Source of the DNA: Propionispira arboris
Lineage (GTDB): Bacteria > Bacillota > Negativicutes > Selenomonadales > Selenomonadaceae
DNA length: 64,000 bases
Reading direction: 5' to 3'
Assembly (NCBI RefSeq): GCF_900109225.1
Contig: NZ_FNZK01000008.1
Coordinates: forward strand, 62,001-126,000
Shown here piece after piece: positions 35,529 to 42,510 of this stretch. Each line of letters begins with the position of its first letter. Position 1 is the first letter of the stretch. A program made the translations under genes and the position numbers. Under the pieces are notes generated by a model. That model was not told the DNA's origin. It was given only the letters and a program-made list of their open reading frames with translations, and did no database searches.

Positions 35529-36290
35529 TCAATCATCAAGCCATTTTGTTTTGACTATATCAATATTATGCAAAGCTTGTTCCATCGTTACATGGGCATA
35601 TTCAAAGACCATGACAGCTGTAGGGGCAGCGGTTTTAATATTGGTGAAAATATTTTGCCAGTCAACGGTTCCCTGCCCGATTGCCAGATGTTCATCGATA
35701 ATGCCATGATTGTCATGTAAATGAAAAGCTTTTAAGCGGCTGCCTAGTGATTGGATTAGTTCAGGGAAAGACCAATCATTGACGGCGGCATGACCAATGT
35801 CCAGCAAGGCATTGGCATTTAGATTGATAATTAAGTCGAAAAAATCTTGCTGATCATAAAGCAAAGTCTTTTTATTATAGAGACCAACATTTTCAATCAA
35901 TATCGGTACATTATATAGAGCGGCGAGATTTAAAATTTTGAGCAGACGTTTTTTAACAAGATTTTGCAGCGTATATTTTTCACCAGATAAAGATTCATTG
36001 GTGTGAACAACAACGTAGTCTGCTTGCCACTTTTGGGCGAAAATGAAAAGATTTTTGTAGATGGCTAAATAGTTTTGTTTTTTTATATCTGCTAAATTGA
36101 TGCTGATACATGGTGCATGAATGCTGAATCCTTTGACAGAACCAGCTGGATACAAGTCAGTCAAAACTTGGCTCCAATAATCATCCGAACCGAATTCATA
36201 AAATATTTCAAGTCCCATTGATATAGGCAGCTTTTTTAGGTTCGGGTATTCAAACCCCGCAAAAGACAAATTACTGAGTGCCAGTTTCAT
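35529..36290 (-). CDS. Xylose-isomerase-like TIM-barrel protein (sugar phosphate isomerase/epimerase family)
   Basis: A 253-residue AP-endonuclease-2/xylose-isomerase-like TIM barrel. Probable metal ligands lie in VVVHTNES (His), LIENVG (Glu), LLDIGHAA (Asp, His), AFHLHDN (His, Asp) and VFEYAH (Glu). Such proteins are sugar (phosphate) isomerases, epimerases or hydrolases; the reaction cannot be assigned. It is the last gene of the Ugp-like ABC operon, in the place where ugpQ (a glycerophosphodiesterase) is found in enteric bacteria. AAAGGAGG lies ahead of the ATG. Confidence 0.8.
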   Translation of the reverse strand: MKLALSNLSFAGFEYPNLKKLPISMGLEIFYEFGSDDYWSQVLTDLYPAGSVKGFSIHAPCISINLADIKKQNYLAIYKNLFIFAQKWQADYVVVHTNESLSGEKYTLQNLVKKRLLKILNLAALYNVPILIENVGLYNKKTLLYDQQDFFDLIINLNANALLDIGHAAVNDWSFPELIQSLGSRLKAFHLHDNHGIIDEHLAIGQGTVDWQNIFTNIKTAAPTAVMVFEYAHVTMEQALHNIDIVKTKWLDD

Positions 36291-36311: not shown

Positions 36312-37385
36312 TTATTCTGGATAACCAATATTTTCGCCGCTAATCGCATCAAATAAACTTATATGTTTCCAGGAAAAAGAAAGCTGGATGGGGCCTTTTG
36401 CTACGATTTGCTCAGCTGGTACGATACATAAAATATTTTGACCATTATGGGGAAGTGATATGTGAATGCAATGCTGGCTGCCCAGATTTTCGATGAAGTC
36501 GGCAGTTCCGGCAAGCATACATGAATCGGTAACTACAATATGTTCAGGCCTGATCCCTAGCATTAAATTTGTTTTTTTTGCTGCCAGCGGCAGCCATTTA
36601 GCAGGCAGTTCAAGACGTGTGCCATCAATCCACAAAGCACTATCATTACATTCAACCGGGAGCAGATTCATCGCCGGAATGCCAATAAAAGAAGCGACGA
36701 AAGTATTGGCGGGTCTGCTATAAATCATGTCAGGCGTATTCAATTGCTGTAAGAGCCCCTGTTTCATAATCGCAACCCGTTGTCCCACCGTCATGGCTTC
36801 TACCTGGTCGTGTGTCACATACATCATAGTGGGTTGATAGAGTTCATGGATTTTGACAAGTTCGGTTCGGGCTTGCTGTCTGAGTTTTGCATCCAGATTT
36901 GATAGGGGCTCGTCTAATAGGAAAAATGGTGCTTGTTTTACCAAAGCCCGTCCTAATGCAACACGCTGTTTTTGTCCGCCAGAGAGTTCTTTTGGTTTTC
37001 GATTTTCAAAGCCGGATAGATTTAAGATCGAGAGGACTTTTTTTGTTCGGCTTTGAATTTCTTCTTTAGAAACTTTTTGCAGTCTCAAGCCAAACGTAAT
37101 ATTTTCCCATACACTCATATGCGGATAGAGGGCATAGTTTTGAAATACCATAGCAACATTACGCTCACCAGGTTCAACATTCGTAACGATTTTTCCACCC
37201 ATTTTTAAAATGCCAGAACTAATGCTTTCCAATCCGGCAACCATGCGGAGGGTTGTGGTCTTGCCACAGCCAGAAGGCCCTAACAGGATTAAACGTTCGC
37301 CTTGTTTTACTTCTAAGTTTAAATTTTTAATGGCATTGGTATCGTTATAAGATTTGCAGATGTTTTCAAAGATAATTCCATTCAT
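36312..37385 (-). CDS. ugpC: ABC importer ATPase, UgpC/MalK type
   Basis: A 357-residue ATPase of carbohydrate/glycerol-3-phosphate importers. Walker A GPSGCGKTTT, Q-loop MVFQNYALYPHMSV, signature LSGGQKQRVALGRAL, Walker B LLDEPLSNLDAKLR, and a C-terminal TOBE regulatory domain (LGIRPEHIVV). The Met at 37385 gives the normal N-terminus MNGIIFENI; a longer frame to 37508 runs into the permease gene. One ATPase homodimer serves the two permeases encoded next to it. Confidence 0.88.
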   Translation of the reverse strand: MNGIIFENICKSYNDTNAIKNLNLEVKQGERLILLGPSGCGKTTTLRMVAGLESISSGILKMGGKIVTNVEPGERNVAMVFQNYALYPHMSVWENITFGLRLQKVSKEEIQSRTKKVLSILNLSGFENRKPKELSGGQKQRVALGRALVKQAPFFLLDEPLSNLDAKLRQQARTELVKIHELYQPTMMYVTHDQVEAMTVGQRVAIMKQGLLQQLNTPDMIYSRPANTFVASFIGIPAMNLLPVECNDSALWIDGTRLELPAKWLPLAAKKTNLMLGIRPEHIVVTDSCMLAGTADFIENLGSQHCIHISLPHNGQNILCIVPAEQIVAKGPIQLSFSWKHISLFDAISGENIGYPE

Positions 37386-37393
37386 TCGTTGAT

Positions 37394-38221
37394 CTATCCT
37401 TTCACGCCAGATTGTATAAATGAGTTCATGATAAAACGTTGGAAAAGCAGGTACAAAAATAATGGCGGTAAGGAGGTCAGGGTGGCTAATGTCATCGCGA
37501 TGCCCCATTCACTGCCGCCTTCGGCGCTGATAAACATTTGTAGGGCAATAGGCAGTGTATAGCTTGCCTTGTCATTGAGTATCAATAATGGCCAAAAGTA
37601 CTGATTCCAGGAATCAATAAAAAAGATAATCCCCATGGCGAAGATGGCCGGTTTGATAAGGGGCAGCATAATACGATGCAAAATAAGCCAGGCACTGGCA
37701 TTTTCGAGTTTTGCGGCTTCAATAAGCGGTTTTGGAATGCCACGCATTGTTTGTCGCATCAGAAAAATGCCCATACCATCCATTAACTGAGGCAATATGA
37801 CCCCTAGGGGATTATTTAATAAGCCGAGTTTAGCGATCAGCAAATAGTTTGGCATAATTACCACTGTAATGGGAATAAAAAAGGTAAACAGCAGGGCGTT
37901 GAATATTTTTTCTTTATGGCGAAAATCATAATATACAAAGGCAAAAGCAGCTAAAAGGCTTGTGCAGATTTTTGCTAGGGTAATGACACTGGCGATTATA
38001 AATGTGTTGCTGATATAGTTTAGGAGGGGCAATGTTTCTAATACATGCAGGTAGTTATCTAAAACAAAGGGGGCGGGAAAAGGATTTAAGGTAGCTGTGA
38101 ATATTTGATCCATAGTTTTAAAAGAAGTCGACACCATAAATAGCAGGGGCCAAACTTCTATAAGAATGACAACAATCAATAAAAAATGCCACAGCACACT
38201 TCTTTTTTTGTTAATTTTCAT
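37394..38221 (-). CDS. ugpE: ABC importer permease, UgpE/MalG type
   Basis: A 275-residue permease with about six transmembrane segments. The EAA loop EAAKLENASAWLILHRIMLPLIKPA contacts the ATPase. N-terminus WPLLFMVSTSFKTMDQIF is typical of the MalG/UgpE group. Its first 11 bases overlap the end of the partner permease gene, indicating coupled translation. GAAGGTGC precedes the ATG. Confidence 0.88.
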   Translation of the reverse strand: MKINKKRSVLWHFLLIVVILIEVWPLLFMVSTSFKTMDQIFTATLNPFPAPFVLDNYLHVLETLPLLNYISNTFIIASVITLAKICTSLLAAFAFVYYDFRHKEKIFNALLFTFFIPITVVIMPNYLLIAKLGLLNNPLGVILPQLMDGMGIFLMRQTMRGIPKPLIEAAKLENASAWLILHRIMLPLIKPAIFAMGIIFFIDSWNQYFWPLLILNDKASYTLPIALQMFISAEGGSEWGIAMTLATLTSLPPLFLYLLFQRFIMNSFIQSGVKG

Positions 38222-39089
38222 AATGCACCTTCTTGTTTAAAGCCTTGCTTTTTATTACTAAAAAACCAGCGTAGACAATCATTGTAAGTATGGCTAAGGC
38301 AGCGGCTTTTCCGGTTTGGAAAAAGACAAAACCATATTGATATACAATATATACTAAGTTCGTGCTGCTTTGATTGGGACCGCCTTGTGTAAGCATGTTA
38401 AGTGGGACCAATACATATTGTAAGCCAAAGACGATGGTAATGATGAGAACGTAGATAGCTGTTGGTGATGTCATTGGTACAACGATATAACGAAAAATAT
38501 GCCAGTTGGAGGCATTTTCGAGTTTTGCGGCTTCAATTAAATCTTTGGGGACATCAACCATGGCGGCTAGGAGAACAAGGAGATTGTAACCGAATATTTT
38601 CCAACCAATGATGAAACTGATTGCAGCAATGACAAATCCTGGCTCTTTAAACCAACTGGGGGAAGTTAAACCTATACTGGATAACAGTAAACTGATCGGC
38701 CCAGCGAGTGGATTAAAGATCCAAAGAAAAATGATACTGGCTACTGCCAGCGATAATGTACTGGGGATAAATAAGATAGAACGGTAGAAAAACTTGAAAT
38801 GGTGAATACAATGAGCCATAACAAAAGATAACAGATAGGGCAGCAGAAAATTGATGATGACGAGTAATATGATATAAAAAAGCGTGTTTGCAAGAATTTT
38901 AAACAGTTCATCACCAGACATCAATTGCCGATAATTATCAAAACCAACAAATTTCATTGTGGGATTGACCATATTCCAGGAGTGGAAACTCAGCCAAAGG
39001 TCTTGTAGTAAAGGCCAGTACGAAAATAACAAAGACAAGAAAATTGCGGGAGTTAAGAAAAGCCCGGGCTGCCAATAATGACGGTTCAT
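38211..39089 (-). CDS. ugpA: ABC importer permease, UgpA/MalF type
   Basis: A 292-residue permease with six predicted transmembrane segments and the EAA loop EAAKLENASNWHIFRYIVVPMTSPT. The sequence PAIFLSLLFSYWPLLQDLWLSFHSWN is typical of UgpA-like proteins. The ATG at 39089 has AAAGGATT upstream; the frame continues to 39155 through a hairpin and is not favoured. A hairpin at 39121-39159 separates it from the binding-protein gene. Confidence 0.87.
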   Translation of the reverse strand: MNRHYWQPGLFLTPAIFLSLLFSYWPLLQDLWLSFHSWNMVNPTMKFVGFDNYRQLMSGDELFKILANTLFYIILLVIINFLLPYLLSFVMAHCIHHFKFFYRSILFIPSTLSLAVASIIFLWIFNPLAGPISLLLSSIGLTSPSWFKEPGFVIAAISFIIGWKIFGYNLLVLLAAMVDVPKDLIEAAKLENASNWHIFRYIVVPMTSPTAIYVLIITIVFGLQYVLVPLNMLTQGGPNQSSTNLVYIVYQYGFVFFQTGKAAALAILTMIVYAGFLVIKSKALNKKVHYEN

Positions 39090-39120
39090 AAAATCAATCC
39101 TTTCAGGTGCGAAATAAACA

Positions 39121-39159
39121 AAGAATGCCGAATAAGCCGTGGGCTCATTCGGCATTCTT
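39121..39159 (-). terminator. Intra-operon hairpin between binding protein and permease genes
   Basis: Perfect 13-bp inverted repeat (39121-39133 with 39147-39159), with a U-rich stretch after it on the minus strand. Probably a partial terminator or mRNA-stabilising hairpin that gives more binding protein than permease. Confidence 0.7.
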
Positions 39160-39172
39160 TTATTTGGCAGGG

Positions 39173-40471
39173 TTATTGAAGTAAAGTATTTACTTTATCG
39201 GCTGCTTGTTTTAAGGCAGCGGCAGCAGTCTGCTGACCGCTTAAAATTACATCACGGACATCAATCAATGCTTGTTCAGCCTGAAGTCCATTTGCACCAG
39301 GAAAACTTGCCCATTTTACAACATCCGGCATTTGTGACATAGCGGATTGCATGTTTTTATTTTCGGCAACAAAATCTTTTAATCCGTTAGGATCTTCCGT
39401 CACACCTTTGCGTGGGGGAAGGTAACCGGTACCTTTTGTCCAAAGAGCGAGTGCTGAAGGCGATTCAAGAAATTTAACAAAACGCCAAGCAGCTTTTTGT
39501 TTTTCTGGATCTTTAGAGAAAATCATCAGCATATTTCCGCCCGCAGGGACCTTTCTAGGTTTATTTTCAAAAGTTGGAAATAGTGTACTCATAACCGTGA
39601 ATTTTGCACTTTTTTCAAAGTTTTCTCGTTTCCCAATTGTTGTACAAACCATGCCTACTTTGCCACTTAGAAAAGCCTGGAAAGCTTCGTCATTGCTGGA
39701 ATGAAGCCCTGTGCCGACTTTCACCATATCAGCAATAACCTGATATGCCTGAGCAGCTTCCGGTGAGTCAAAAGCTGCAACGGTTTTATTATCTTTTTTA
39801 GTGAGCATTTTGCCCCCATTGGATTCAATTAAAGCTTGTTGAGCCCAGTTATCGGCATATTCCTGCATGAAAAATCCAACGTTGCTAGTTTTTTCTTTGA
39901 TGATTTGTGCGTATTGTGTTACTTCCTGCCAAGTACGTGGCGGTTTATTAGGGTCAAGGCCCGCTTGTTTAAATATCTCGGGATTATAATATAATACTGG
40001 GACACTCACGGAATACGGCACACCGATTTGTTTGCCATCATCGGTTGTTGCCAAAGAAATAATATTCGGCAAAAAATTATCTTGTATGAAGTTTTTATCT
40101 TCAGGCATTTGTGTACTAATAAGTTCTTGAATATCATCATATTTTAAGTTTTCGCCGGCATAATTTAAGTAACTGTAGCCCATTTGCACAACATCAGGAT
40201 TTTTACCTGAGGCCATGGCGGCTTGAAGATTTTGTGTTAATCCCTTATACATATCAGGATTAAATTTTTCGACGACTTCAATATCAGGATTTTCTTTATT
40301 AAATGTTTCAATAAGTTGCTTGACCGTAGCTCCGCCAAAACTTTCGGCATTTACATGCCAATACTCAATGGTTACTTTTTCACTGGTTTTTGTTGTGTTA
40401 CCACAACCAGTAAGTGTAATGAGAAAAAGGCTAAGACATAAAAAGGAAATTATTTTTGTGAATTGTTTCAA
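39173..40471 (-). CDS. ugpB: ABC importer substrate-binding lipoprotein, UgpB type
   Basis: A 432-residue binding lipoprotein. Signal peptide ends in LITLTGCGN with lipidated Cys23. The mature part has the family-1 solute-binding pattern (VTIEYWHVNAESFGGATVKQL, FNKENPDIEVVEKF, VPYSVSVPVLYYNPEIFKQAGLDP, AWRFVKFLES). Known relatives bind glycerol-3-phosphate, glycerophosphodiesters or sugars. A Pho-box-like array upstream favours a phosphate-ester ligand. The start is TTG with AGGAGG 8 bases ahead. Confidence 0.85.
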   Translation of the reverse strand: MKQFTKIISFLCLSLFLITLTGCGNTTKTSEKVTIEYWHVNAESFGGATVKQLIETFNKENPDIEVVEKFNPDMYKGLTQNLQAAMASGKNPDVVQMGYSYLNYAGENLKYDDIQELISTQMPEDKNFIQDNFLPNIISLATTDDGKQIGVPYSVSVPVLYYNPEIFKQAGLDPNKPPRTWQEVTQYAQIIKEKTSNVGFFMQEYADNWAQQALIESNGGKMLTKKDNKTVAAFDSPEAAQAYQVIADMVKVGTGLHSSNDEAFQAFLSGKVGMVCTTIGKRENFEKSAKFTVMSTLFPTFENKPRKVPAGGNMLMIFSKDPEKQKAAWRFVKFLESPSALALWTKGTGYLPPRKGVTEDPNGLKDFVAENKNMQSAMSQMPDVVKWASFPGANGLQAEQALIDVRDVILSGQQTAAAALKQAADKVNTLLQ

Positions 40472-40542
40472 AACAGATACCTCCTACATATACATACACA
40501 ATGTATTATGTATTCAAGTGTAACTTGTTTTTAGCAGCAGGG

Positions 40543-40570
40543 TGTTAAGGCGATGTTAAAAATAAGTTAA
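40543..40570 (-). promoter_or_regulatory. Pho-box-like array: three TTAACA/T hexamers at 11-bp period
   Basis: Read on the minus strand: TTAACT (40570-40565), five bases, TTAACA (40559-40554), five bases, TTAACA (40548-40543). This matches the PhoP recognition pattern known from Bacillus (TTAACA-like hexamers every 11 bp). It lies 72-99 bases upstream of the ugpB start, on the strand of the operon. Confidence 0.68.
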
Positions 40571-40615: not shown

Positions 40616-41329
40616 TCAATGCTGCGATAAGATTTTTGTTGAAATAAACCATTCAAATAAGGTGGCGGAACTGGATTGAGCGATAGGCAGCAATGTTTGT
40701 GCGGCAAAGCGGTATTGGGTAATAGTGGCATTTTCATCAACCCATGGCATGAAATCCGTTGCTATTATCGCATTATTGAGCAATAATTCAAGCGGCTTTT
40801 TTATCGGGATTAGTTCGACTTGCAGTGCGTTAAATTCGTCGTTATGTGTTTGTACCCAATGTTCAAATTTTTTATGTCCATTAAATAAATGACCACAAAC
40901 GTGATGCGGAACAGCCATATCTTGTAATAAATGTGCAGCTGCACCCAGGTAAAAAAAACTATTTGCCAAATCTTTATTTTTCACGAAACGGCAGGCTTTG
41001 GTCAGATAAACAGAAAAATCATATACTGCCGGTGAAAATCGCCATAAGCCTTTGCGCGTGATTGGATTAAAAAAATGATTGATGTTTTTGAATTCTAAAT
41101 CAGCCCACGTAACACCAAGCTGCAAAGCGTTAAGATTTTTTTCTAGGACGCAAGCAACTTCAGGGTACCCATTTTCTCGGATGATCTGCAAAGCTTCGGC
41201 ATTACAGACTTTATGTGTGTGGCATAGTGTGGAATCATGAGGCATATCTAAGATGTATTGAAGCGGGGCTGAAAGCGTGCTGAGAATAGATAATCCTTGA
41301 CTGAAATAACGGGCGGATGTCATCGTCAT
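40616..41329 (-). CDS. Zinc-dependent phospholipase C family protein
   Basis: A 237-residue protein matching the zinc phospholipase C fold (B. cereus PLC, C. perfringens alpha-toxin N-domain). Likely ligands: H39 in CHTHKV, D77 in LQLGVTWADLE, H85 in NHFFNP, H133 and D137 in FYLGAAAHLLQD, H142/H143, and H152 and E156 in GHKKFEHW. Unlike secreted toxins it has no obvious signal peptide, so the usual N-terminal Trp ligand is not generated. It probably acts at the inner face of the membrane, releasing diacylglycerol. Its ATG overlaps the glycosyltransferase stop by four bases, implying coupled translation. Confidence 0.82.
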   Translation of the reverse strand: MTMTSARYFSQGLSILSTLSAPLQYILDMPHDSTLCHTHKVCNAEALQIIRENGYPEVACVLEKNLNALQLGVTWADLEFKNINHFFNPITRKGLWRFSPAVYDFSVYLTKACRFVKNKDLANSFFYLGAAAHLLQDMAVPHHVCGHLFNGHKKFEHWVQTHNDEFNALQVELIPIKKPLELLLNNAIIATDFMPWVDENATITQYRFAAQTLLPIAQSSSATLFEWFISTKILSQH

Positions 41330-42411
41330 AATGCCACCAGCTCTATTGGTGAAATCAAGTGATCTAGAATTTTACGTGAGGCTAAAGAACTTTGTTGAAT
41401 CAACATGTTTTGTGATAGTGAGCTTAGTTGTTCAGGGTTTTCCATGAAAGTGTTTATATAGGCTCTAAGGTCGTTTTCGCATTTAGCCCAACAGCCTAAA
41501 TTCTCTTGCTCTAAGAAACGGGCATTGTCCTCTTCAATACCGGGGATTGGGGAAAATACAAGGATTGGCGTGGCTGTCGCTAAAGCTTCGGTAATGGTAA
41601 GCCCGCCTGGTTTGGTAATGATTAAATCCGATTTTTTCATTAACGAGGCAACTTGATTCGTAAAGCCAATAACGGTGTAGTTTGGTTGATGAATGGCAAT
41701 TTTTTCTAATTGTTTTTGTCGCGGCAGATCATTGCCGGTAACAAAAGTAAAATGGATTGTCCTAGGCAAAGCTTGCAATACATTGAGGATCATCAACATC
41801 GTTTCATCGGTCTGCCAGCTTGTCATGATCAGAATATTATTGAGACTGGCGGAATGAGCAACTGGAGTGAAATTAGGGCCAACGGGGATACCGCTCGGAA
41901 TGATACTCCCGCTTGGATGAAGGGAACTTTTTAACTGATTGACCAATGTGGGATGGGCAACAAAATACTGGTCGACATATGCAACATCCCAAATGGGGTG
42001 GACAATATAGTCCGTTACAATGCCAACCAGTTTAAACGATGAATGATATTTTTTTTTGTAAGCGGCTGCTGCAGCCAGCGGGAAAAAATGTGTACAAAGA
42101 ATCGTGTCTGGTTGGTATTTTTGCACTAAACGACCCATGGTCCGTTGGTTTGTTTTGGCAAGCATGTATTTGACATTGTCGAATGTTTCAATTTCACTGA
42201 TTTTGCAAATTTGCCGAAAAAATGACGGCTTGTATTCAATGAGTGTCTTGTAAGCTTTGCTTAACAGGTTAGGCAGACTATAACGCTGTAATTGCAGAAA
42301 ATCGATGGTTGTTACGGTGTAACCAGATGCCTGCAAATTTTGCTGCATATTGAAGGCAGCCTGATTATGACCGTTGCCGACAGAAACAGTTAAAATCAAC
42401 ACATTATGCAT
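41326..42411 (-). CDS. MGDG synthase/UgtP-type glycosyltransferase (processive diacylglycerol glucosyltransferase-like)
   Basis: A 361-residue GT-B glycosyltransferase. The N-terminus MHNVLILTVSVGNGHNQAA is the MGDG-synthase lipid-acceptor signature and TKPGGLTITEALATATPILVFSPIPGIEEDNARF is the UDP-sugar-binding part (GT28-like). Relatives add glucose or galactose to diacylglycerol to make glycolipids. The Met at 42411 is 8 bases after GGAGG; the frame runs on to 42480 without a better start. It forms a two-gene unit with the phospholipase C downstream, which could supply its diacylglycerol. Confidence 0.85.
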   Translation of the reverse strand: MHNVLILTVSVGNGHNQAAFNMQQNLQASGYTVTTIDFLQLQRYSLPNLLSKAYKTLIEYKPSFFRQICKISEIETFDNVKYMLAKTNQRTMGRLVQKYQPDTILCTHFFPLAAAAAYKKKYHSSFKLVGIVTDYIVHPIWDVAYVDQYFVAHPTLVNQLKSSLHPSGSIIPSGIPVGPNFTPVAHSASLNNILIMTSWQTDETMLMILNVLQALPRTIHFTFVTGNDLPRQKQLEKIAIHQPNYTVIGFTNQVASLMKKSDLIITKPGGLTITEALATATPILVFSPIPGIEEDNARFLEQENLGCWAKCENDLRAYINTFMENPEQLSSLSQNMLIQQSSLASRKILDHLISPIELVAL

Positions 42412-42474
42412 TGTAAACACCTCCGTAATACTTTCTGCTTCCATTATATTTGAAAGCGAGTCAGGATTTATTAT

Positions 42475-42510
42475 GTTCATATTATGATTGTGTTAAATTA
42501 TAATATGAAC
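42475..42510. promoter_or_regulatory. Inverted repeat upstream of the glycosyltransferase gene
   Basis: GTTCATATTAT (42475-42485) and ATAATATGAAC (42500-42510), perfect 11-bp arms with a 14-base spacer, 64 bases upstream of the start codon. Candidate operator; the regulator is unknown. Confidence 0.5.

Follow-up and report, generated by a model that had tools for sequence, protein, structure and literature searches.

A PhoP-type promoter array before a Ugp-like importer and a predicted phosphate-controlled glycosyltransferase-phospholipase C operon in Propionispira arboris

In the PHO box, PhoP or PhoB binds head to tail to 11-bp direct repeats that lie before pst and other phosphate genes, and phosphate control of ugp is known in Escherichia coli (PMC4415409). 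Lipid remodelling of the PlcP-Agt type is also encoded behind Pho boxes, the phospholipase C gene adjoining that of a diacylglycerol glycosyltransferase in various bacteria, marine ones among them (PMC4796936, PMC9239053). The locus described here lies in a window of 64,000 nucleotides of the Propionispira arboris genome (contig NZ_FNZK01000008.1, positions 62,001 to 126,000) and resembles these systems in part (Table 1). Like the PHO box, its array is made of 11-bp direct repeats and is found before pst and other phosphate genes, but in this genome of the Negativicutes, which are outer-membrane-bearing Firmicutes, it typically has three TTWACA-like units and a -10 hexamer at a fixed distance of 20 bp. 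The importer shares with E. coli ugpBAECQ the order of binding protein, UgpA, UgpE and UgpC together with apparent phosphate control, whereas its binding protein is without three glycerol ligands, a PF01261 protein replaces UgpQ (GDPD), and a canonical UgpAEBC with GDPD and an array of its own is encoded separately on contig C11. As in the PlcP-Agt systems of Proteobacteria and other phyla, a phospholipase C gene adjoins a glycosyltransferase gene behind a Pho box; unlike in those systems, the phospholipase belongs to PF00882 and the transferase is MGDG-synthase/YpfP-like. The TIM-barrel protein closing the importer operon falls in the AP endonuclease 2 superfamily with the phosphodiesterases endonuclease IV and CbiR and keeps the nine metal ligands of endonuclease IV but, unlike both, it is encoded with an importer. 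In the open-licence literature we found no earlier description from Negativicutes of this promoter geometry, binding-protein subfamily, TIM-barrel partner or phospholipase family.

Table 1. Coordinates of the importer operon, the adjoining lipid genes and their promoters in the window.
Feature	Position	Strand	Remark
TIM-barrel protein PF01261, candidate phosphoesterase	35529..36290	-	nine endonuclease-IV-type metal ligands
UgpC-like ATPase	36312..37508	-	real start probably near 37385
UgpE-like permease	37394..38221	-	
UgpA-like permease	38211..39155	-	real start probably near 39092
UgpB-like solute-binding lipoprotein	39173..40471	-	distinct subfamily; TTG start
-10 hexamer TACACT	40517..40522	-	exactly 20 bp past third repeat
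PhoP-type array TTAACT-N5-TTAACA-N5-TTAACA, 11-bp pitch	40543..40570	-	kept before orthologous importer genes
Zinc-dependent phospholipase C family protein, PF00882	40616..41329	-	4-bp overlap with glycosyltransferase gene
MGDG-synthase/YpfP-like glycosyltransferase	41326..42411	-	ATG start with Shine-Dalgarno sequence
Second, weaker PhoP-type promoter TTAACA-N5-ATAATA-N5-ATAATA-N20-TATAAT	42443..42496	-	before glycosyltransferase

The array upstream of the importer is confirmed as real and beyond chance. Read on the minus strand from 40570 to 40543 it is TTAACT-TATTT-TTAACA-TCGCC-TTAACA, with hexamers at 40570-40565, 40559-40554 and 40548-40543 oriented towards the importer, and the three TTAACA/T hexamers at 11-bp period that the preliminary description reported upstream of the ugpB-like gene are thus exact. 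Together with the -10 hexamer they form a complete module of three TTWACA units at 11-bp pitch, followed by N20 and TANNNT. A bare search for three hexamers with up to three mismatches was dropped as uninformative, since about 1.3 chance matches are expected per window and loose hexamer matches are weak evidence. The exact array has just two copies in the 4.26-Mb genome, the other of which precedes pstS, and with up to two mismatches it has 17 matches genome-wide versus 7 for the reversed pattern. Once the -10 hexamer at 20 bp is added, the window holds one match against 0.08 expected, and the whole module occurs at 18 places in the genome versus 2 for the reversed control. The 20-bp rule was first noticed among other array matches in the genome and then tested over 24 promoters, of which 19 matched TATAAT in at least four of six positions at gap 20 and 0-7 did so at the other gaps from 10 to 35. 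A matrix built solely from sites of its own genome that do not belong to importers gave the importer site of the window a score of 27.0; in the null of 2389 antisense windows the 99.9% level lay at 13.5 and the highest score was 19.1.

The module marks a set of genes that are overwhelmingly concerned with phosphate. It precedes pstB-phoU, pstS, ppx-ppk and DUF47-pit, ugpAEBC with its adjoining GDPD gene, a phnS2-like ABC importer, a PhoH protein, a secreted HAD-type phosphatase and two purple-acid-phosphatase-like proteins, and also another TIM-barrel protein and another ABC binding protein. Three further matches look like chance (C19:67334, C36:142826 and C37:78282), and C18:153800, at an Nramp gene, was ruled out as a Pho promoter for want of a -10 hexamer at gap 20. 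The gene of a PhoP-like regulator (C23:61446-62159), the best PhoB match in the genome with a score below the curated PhoB cut-off, lies directly upstream of the array-bearing pstB-phoU, and a PhoR-like HisKA/HAMP/PAS kinase is encoded between phoU and pstS (C23:63812-65593). The preliminary description had read the repeats as PhoP-type and put the importer in a phosphate regulon, a view that absence of the array from other phosphate genes, or of a PhoPR system, would have undermined; because the module stands at phosphate genes and a PhoP/PhoR-like pair is encoded in the pst region, neither objection applies. The repeat pitch, the company of pst and other phosphate genes and this regulator pair strongly support membership of the window importer in the predicted phosphate regulon.

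The promoter is also conserved with the importer. Among 68 loci of related binding-protein genes in named genomes, 65 had scorable upstream regions, and 12 of the 65 scored at least 15/18 at period 11, compared with no more than one when the period was set to another value between 7 and 15; many of the genomes compared are related, so p-values overstate their independence. In many other Negativicutes the array likewise precedes importer orthologs, at roughly -85 to -140 relative to the start codon, even in genomes that encode the lipid genes at a different place. With the matrix that leaves out importer sites, the best of these orthologs score 24-31.

The binding protein is likely to take up a phosphate-containing ligand. 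The operon joins a solute-binding protein, two permeases and an ATPase, all four of which best match Ugp models below curated cut-offs, and the nearest named relative for the binding-protein gene is that of Propionispira raffinosivorans DSM 20765 (98% identical protein). We aligned the binding protein by MAFFT with E. coli UgpB and the glycerol-3-phosphate-bound UgpB of Phaeobacter MED193, taking the ligand residues from the bound structure (PMC12718374). On the phosphate side Tyr64, Ser143 and Tyr342 are kept and Ser266 is Thr, and Gly303 and Trp191 are retained; on the glycerol side three ligands are replaced, Glu88 by Tyr/Trp, Trp188 by Ala and Arg393 by Glu, the last assignment being less certain because the alignment is gapped there. 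Since the phosphate-side residues are largely kept, the ligand is likely a phosphate ester or diester; its tail would differ from that of glycerol-3-phosphate and is possibly cationic. Glycerol-3-phosphate itself is plausible, but with the glycerol ligands replaced and a canonical Ugp elsewhere, the array alone cannot establish it as the ligand. The earlier argument from the array to a phosphate ester such as glycerol-3-phosphate is therefore supported in its general part, through the phosphate-site residues, and not in its specific one. A paralogous importer (L093, C35:60000-74000), with a binding protein 40% identical, has no Pho box, and its cluster also holds GlpP (the glycerol-3-phosphate-responsive antiterminator), a HAD protein and a metallophosphoesterase.

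The importer operon of the window contains no UgpQ-type GDPD, and the PF01261 TIM-barrel protein occupies that place. Residues H58, H96, E133, D164, H167, H190, D199, H201 and E230 are invariant in 30 of 30 homologs and align with the residues that bind metal in endonuclease IV; in the isomerase IolI several of these are missing. The predicted structure (pLDDT 94.5) is closest overall to MJ1311 and ketose/sugar epimerases, and identity with CbiR was ruled out (33.9 bits versus a curated cut-off of 105). Our preferred reading is that the protein is possibly a phosphoesterase standing in for UgpQ; an isomerase role would also be compatible with the modelled fold. In many Bacilli GlpP accompanies the orthologous importer operon, which suggests that the product of the operon feeds the glycerol-3-phosphate pool. 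That GlpP and the Pho box exclude each other is suggestive only: the cut applied first, at the 99% null level, gave p = 0.065, short of significance, and the 0/20 versus 14/39 (p = 0.0013) at a stricter, afterwards-chosen cut is confounded by phylogeny.

Directly upstream of the importer operon lies the glycosyltransferase-phospholipase C pair, which by family match and gene order unites a phospholipase C and a diacylglycerol glycosyltransferase downstream of a Pho box, as expected for lipid remodelling; the preliminary description had overlooked both these genes and their promoter. No Pho box was found directly before the phospholipase gene in the window; the promoter instead precedes the glycosyltransferase, about 31 bp before its Shine-Dalgarno-bearing ATG, and repeats 2 and 3 of its box are degenerate. 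PF00882 is the only Pfam match of the window phospholipase, in which no signal peptide was seen, whereas PlcP is a metallophosphoesterase of another family. Its residues H39, D77, H85, H133, D137, H143, H152 and E156, the predicted metal ligands of this family, are invariant. Phospholipase homologs were detected in 56 of 300 genomes of the class, spread over 30 of 98 genera. A box score of at least 15 was reached by 32/53 head genes of such phospholipase genes or glycosyltransferase-phospholipase pairs versus 23/321 nearby control genes (Fisher p = 7e-18, optimistic through relatedness and conservative since the controls include likely Pho genes), and 11/53 head genes scored below 8. An 11-bp inverted repeat, GTTCATATTAT ... 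ATAATATGAAC, at 42471-42506 on the minus strand overlaps the glycosyltransferase Pho promoter and could be the operator of a second regulator.

These features fit a common response to phosphate starvation. By analogy with PhoB/PhoP biology, we infer that at low phosphate phosphorylated PhoP would bind the array head to tail and recruit RNA polymerase; its operator would follow a fixed PhoB-type design, with three direct repeats one helical turn apart, then 20 bp, then the -10 hexamer. Such arrays in the window would drive two adjacent operons. Through the importer, SBP-UgpA-UgpE-UgpC, a phosphate ester or diester would enter the cell and be hydrolysed in the cytoplasm by the TIM-barrel protein, while the phospholipase C would strip phospholipid head groups and the glycosyltransferase would add sugar to the diacylglycerol left behind, with glycolipids taking the place of phospholipids. 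As an overall explanation, PhoP control of both operons, combining scavenging with a lipid swap, appears probable to us. A wider proposal is more tentative, and we hold it with slightly less than even confidence: that lipid remodelling triggered by phosphate arose independently in Negativicutes, with PlcP-Agt replaced by a zinc-dependent phospholipase C of PF00882 and a transferase resembling MGDG synthase. In this genome the remodelling would be coupled to an importer of a phosphodiester, which a TIM-barrel enzyme of endonuclease-IV type, rather than UgpQ, would cut.

Other explanations would attach to the regulator, the ligand or the lipid genes. The array might serve another OmpR-family regulator; sites of WalR/YycF-like regulators, for instance, show an 11-bp period too. 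The genome does encode at least 10 full-length OmpR/PhoB-type regulators, several scoring near the best, which itself falls below the curated PhoB cut-off. The array targets, however, are overwhelmingly pst, ppx-ppk, pit, phoH, phosphatase and ugp genes, and the best PhoB match sits directly upstream of the array-bearing pstB-phoU operon, which makes another regulator very improbable. Phosphate control could also be real with an importer that supplies an ordinary sugar for carbon and a TIM-barrel protein that acts as sugar epimerase. Membership of the transporter in the CUT1 family, the resemblance of the TIM-barrel model to epimerase-like structures and the loss of three glycerol-phosphate ligands from the binding protein would suit this. 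Yet the Tyr, Ser and Tyr of the phosphate site are kept and its other Ser is Thr, and glucose-binding proteins are reported not to conserve the corresponding UgpB residues (PMC12718374). The full endonuclease-IV metal set, incomplete in IolI, and the linkage of GlpP to the importer operon in Bacilli likewise speak against this reading, and we regard sugar import as unlikely.

The glycosyltransferase-phospholipase pair, finally, could be a constitutive envelope pathway for glycolipid or anchor synthesis that stands beside the importer by chance behind a fortuitous weak box. Two repeats of the window box are indeed imperfect, and no box was detected in a few of the homologous pairs. Against this, a matrix whose training set contained no importer or glycosyltransferase sites gives the box at 42443-42496 a score of 24.7, well above the null (99.9% level 13.5, maximum 19.1), and the pairs of relatives have strong boxes (26-32) and recurrent linkage to pstS, which several of them adjoin. 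A chance neighbourhood is thus quite unlikely, and joint phosphate control of the importer and the lipid genes is the reading that we favour.

The promoter design gives a precise and searchable signature of phosphate control in Negativicutes. By it, two uncharacterised gene sets would be assigned to phosphate starvation, namely the PF00882-glycosyltransferase pair and the importer with its TIM-barrel partner, and replacement of phospholipids is predicted for this class, on which the open-licence papers searched yielded no such account. The most interesting part, the putative phosphate-controlled lipid swapping, falls just outside 40543-40570.

Several other loci in the genome carry related features. 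A GGDEF-EAL protein gene (L032 5128-7449 = C23:59128-61449) lies directly 5' of the PhoP-like regulator gene. In relatives, long proteins of similar appearance adjoin glycosyltransferase-phospholipase pairs and pstS (L076, L079, L081); together these placements hint at a connection between cyclic-di-GMP and the Pho locus. Two near-identical Pho boxes 4.5 kb apart, at C36:167378 and C36:171845 (L171, L172), precede another PF01261 TIM-barrel protein and an ABC binding protein, and this region is a possible third phosphorus importer cluster. A HAMP/HATPase sensor protein (C23:88146-91364; L033 8146-11364) has the Pho-like promoter TTAACT-TTAATA-TTAACG-N20-TATACT. A secreted Tat-like protein with a weak HD-domain match only (C15:83876-85096; L040 7876-9096) has a strong Pho box and the -10 hexamer TATAAT, and a similar protein (L084 210-1370) is encoded in genome G037, where it shares a contig with the importer ortholog.
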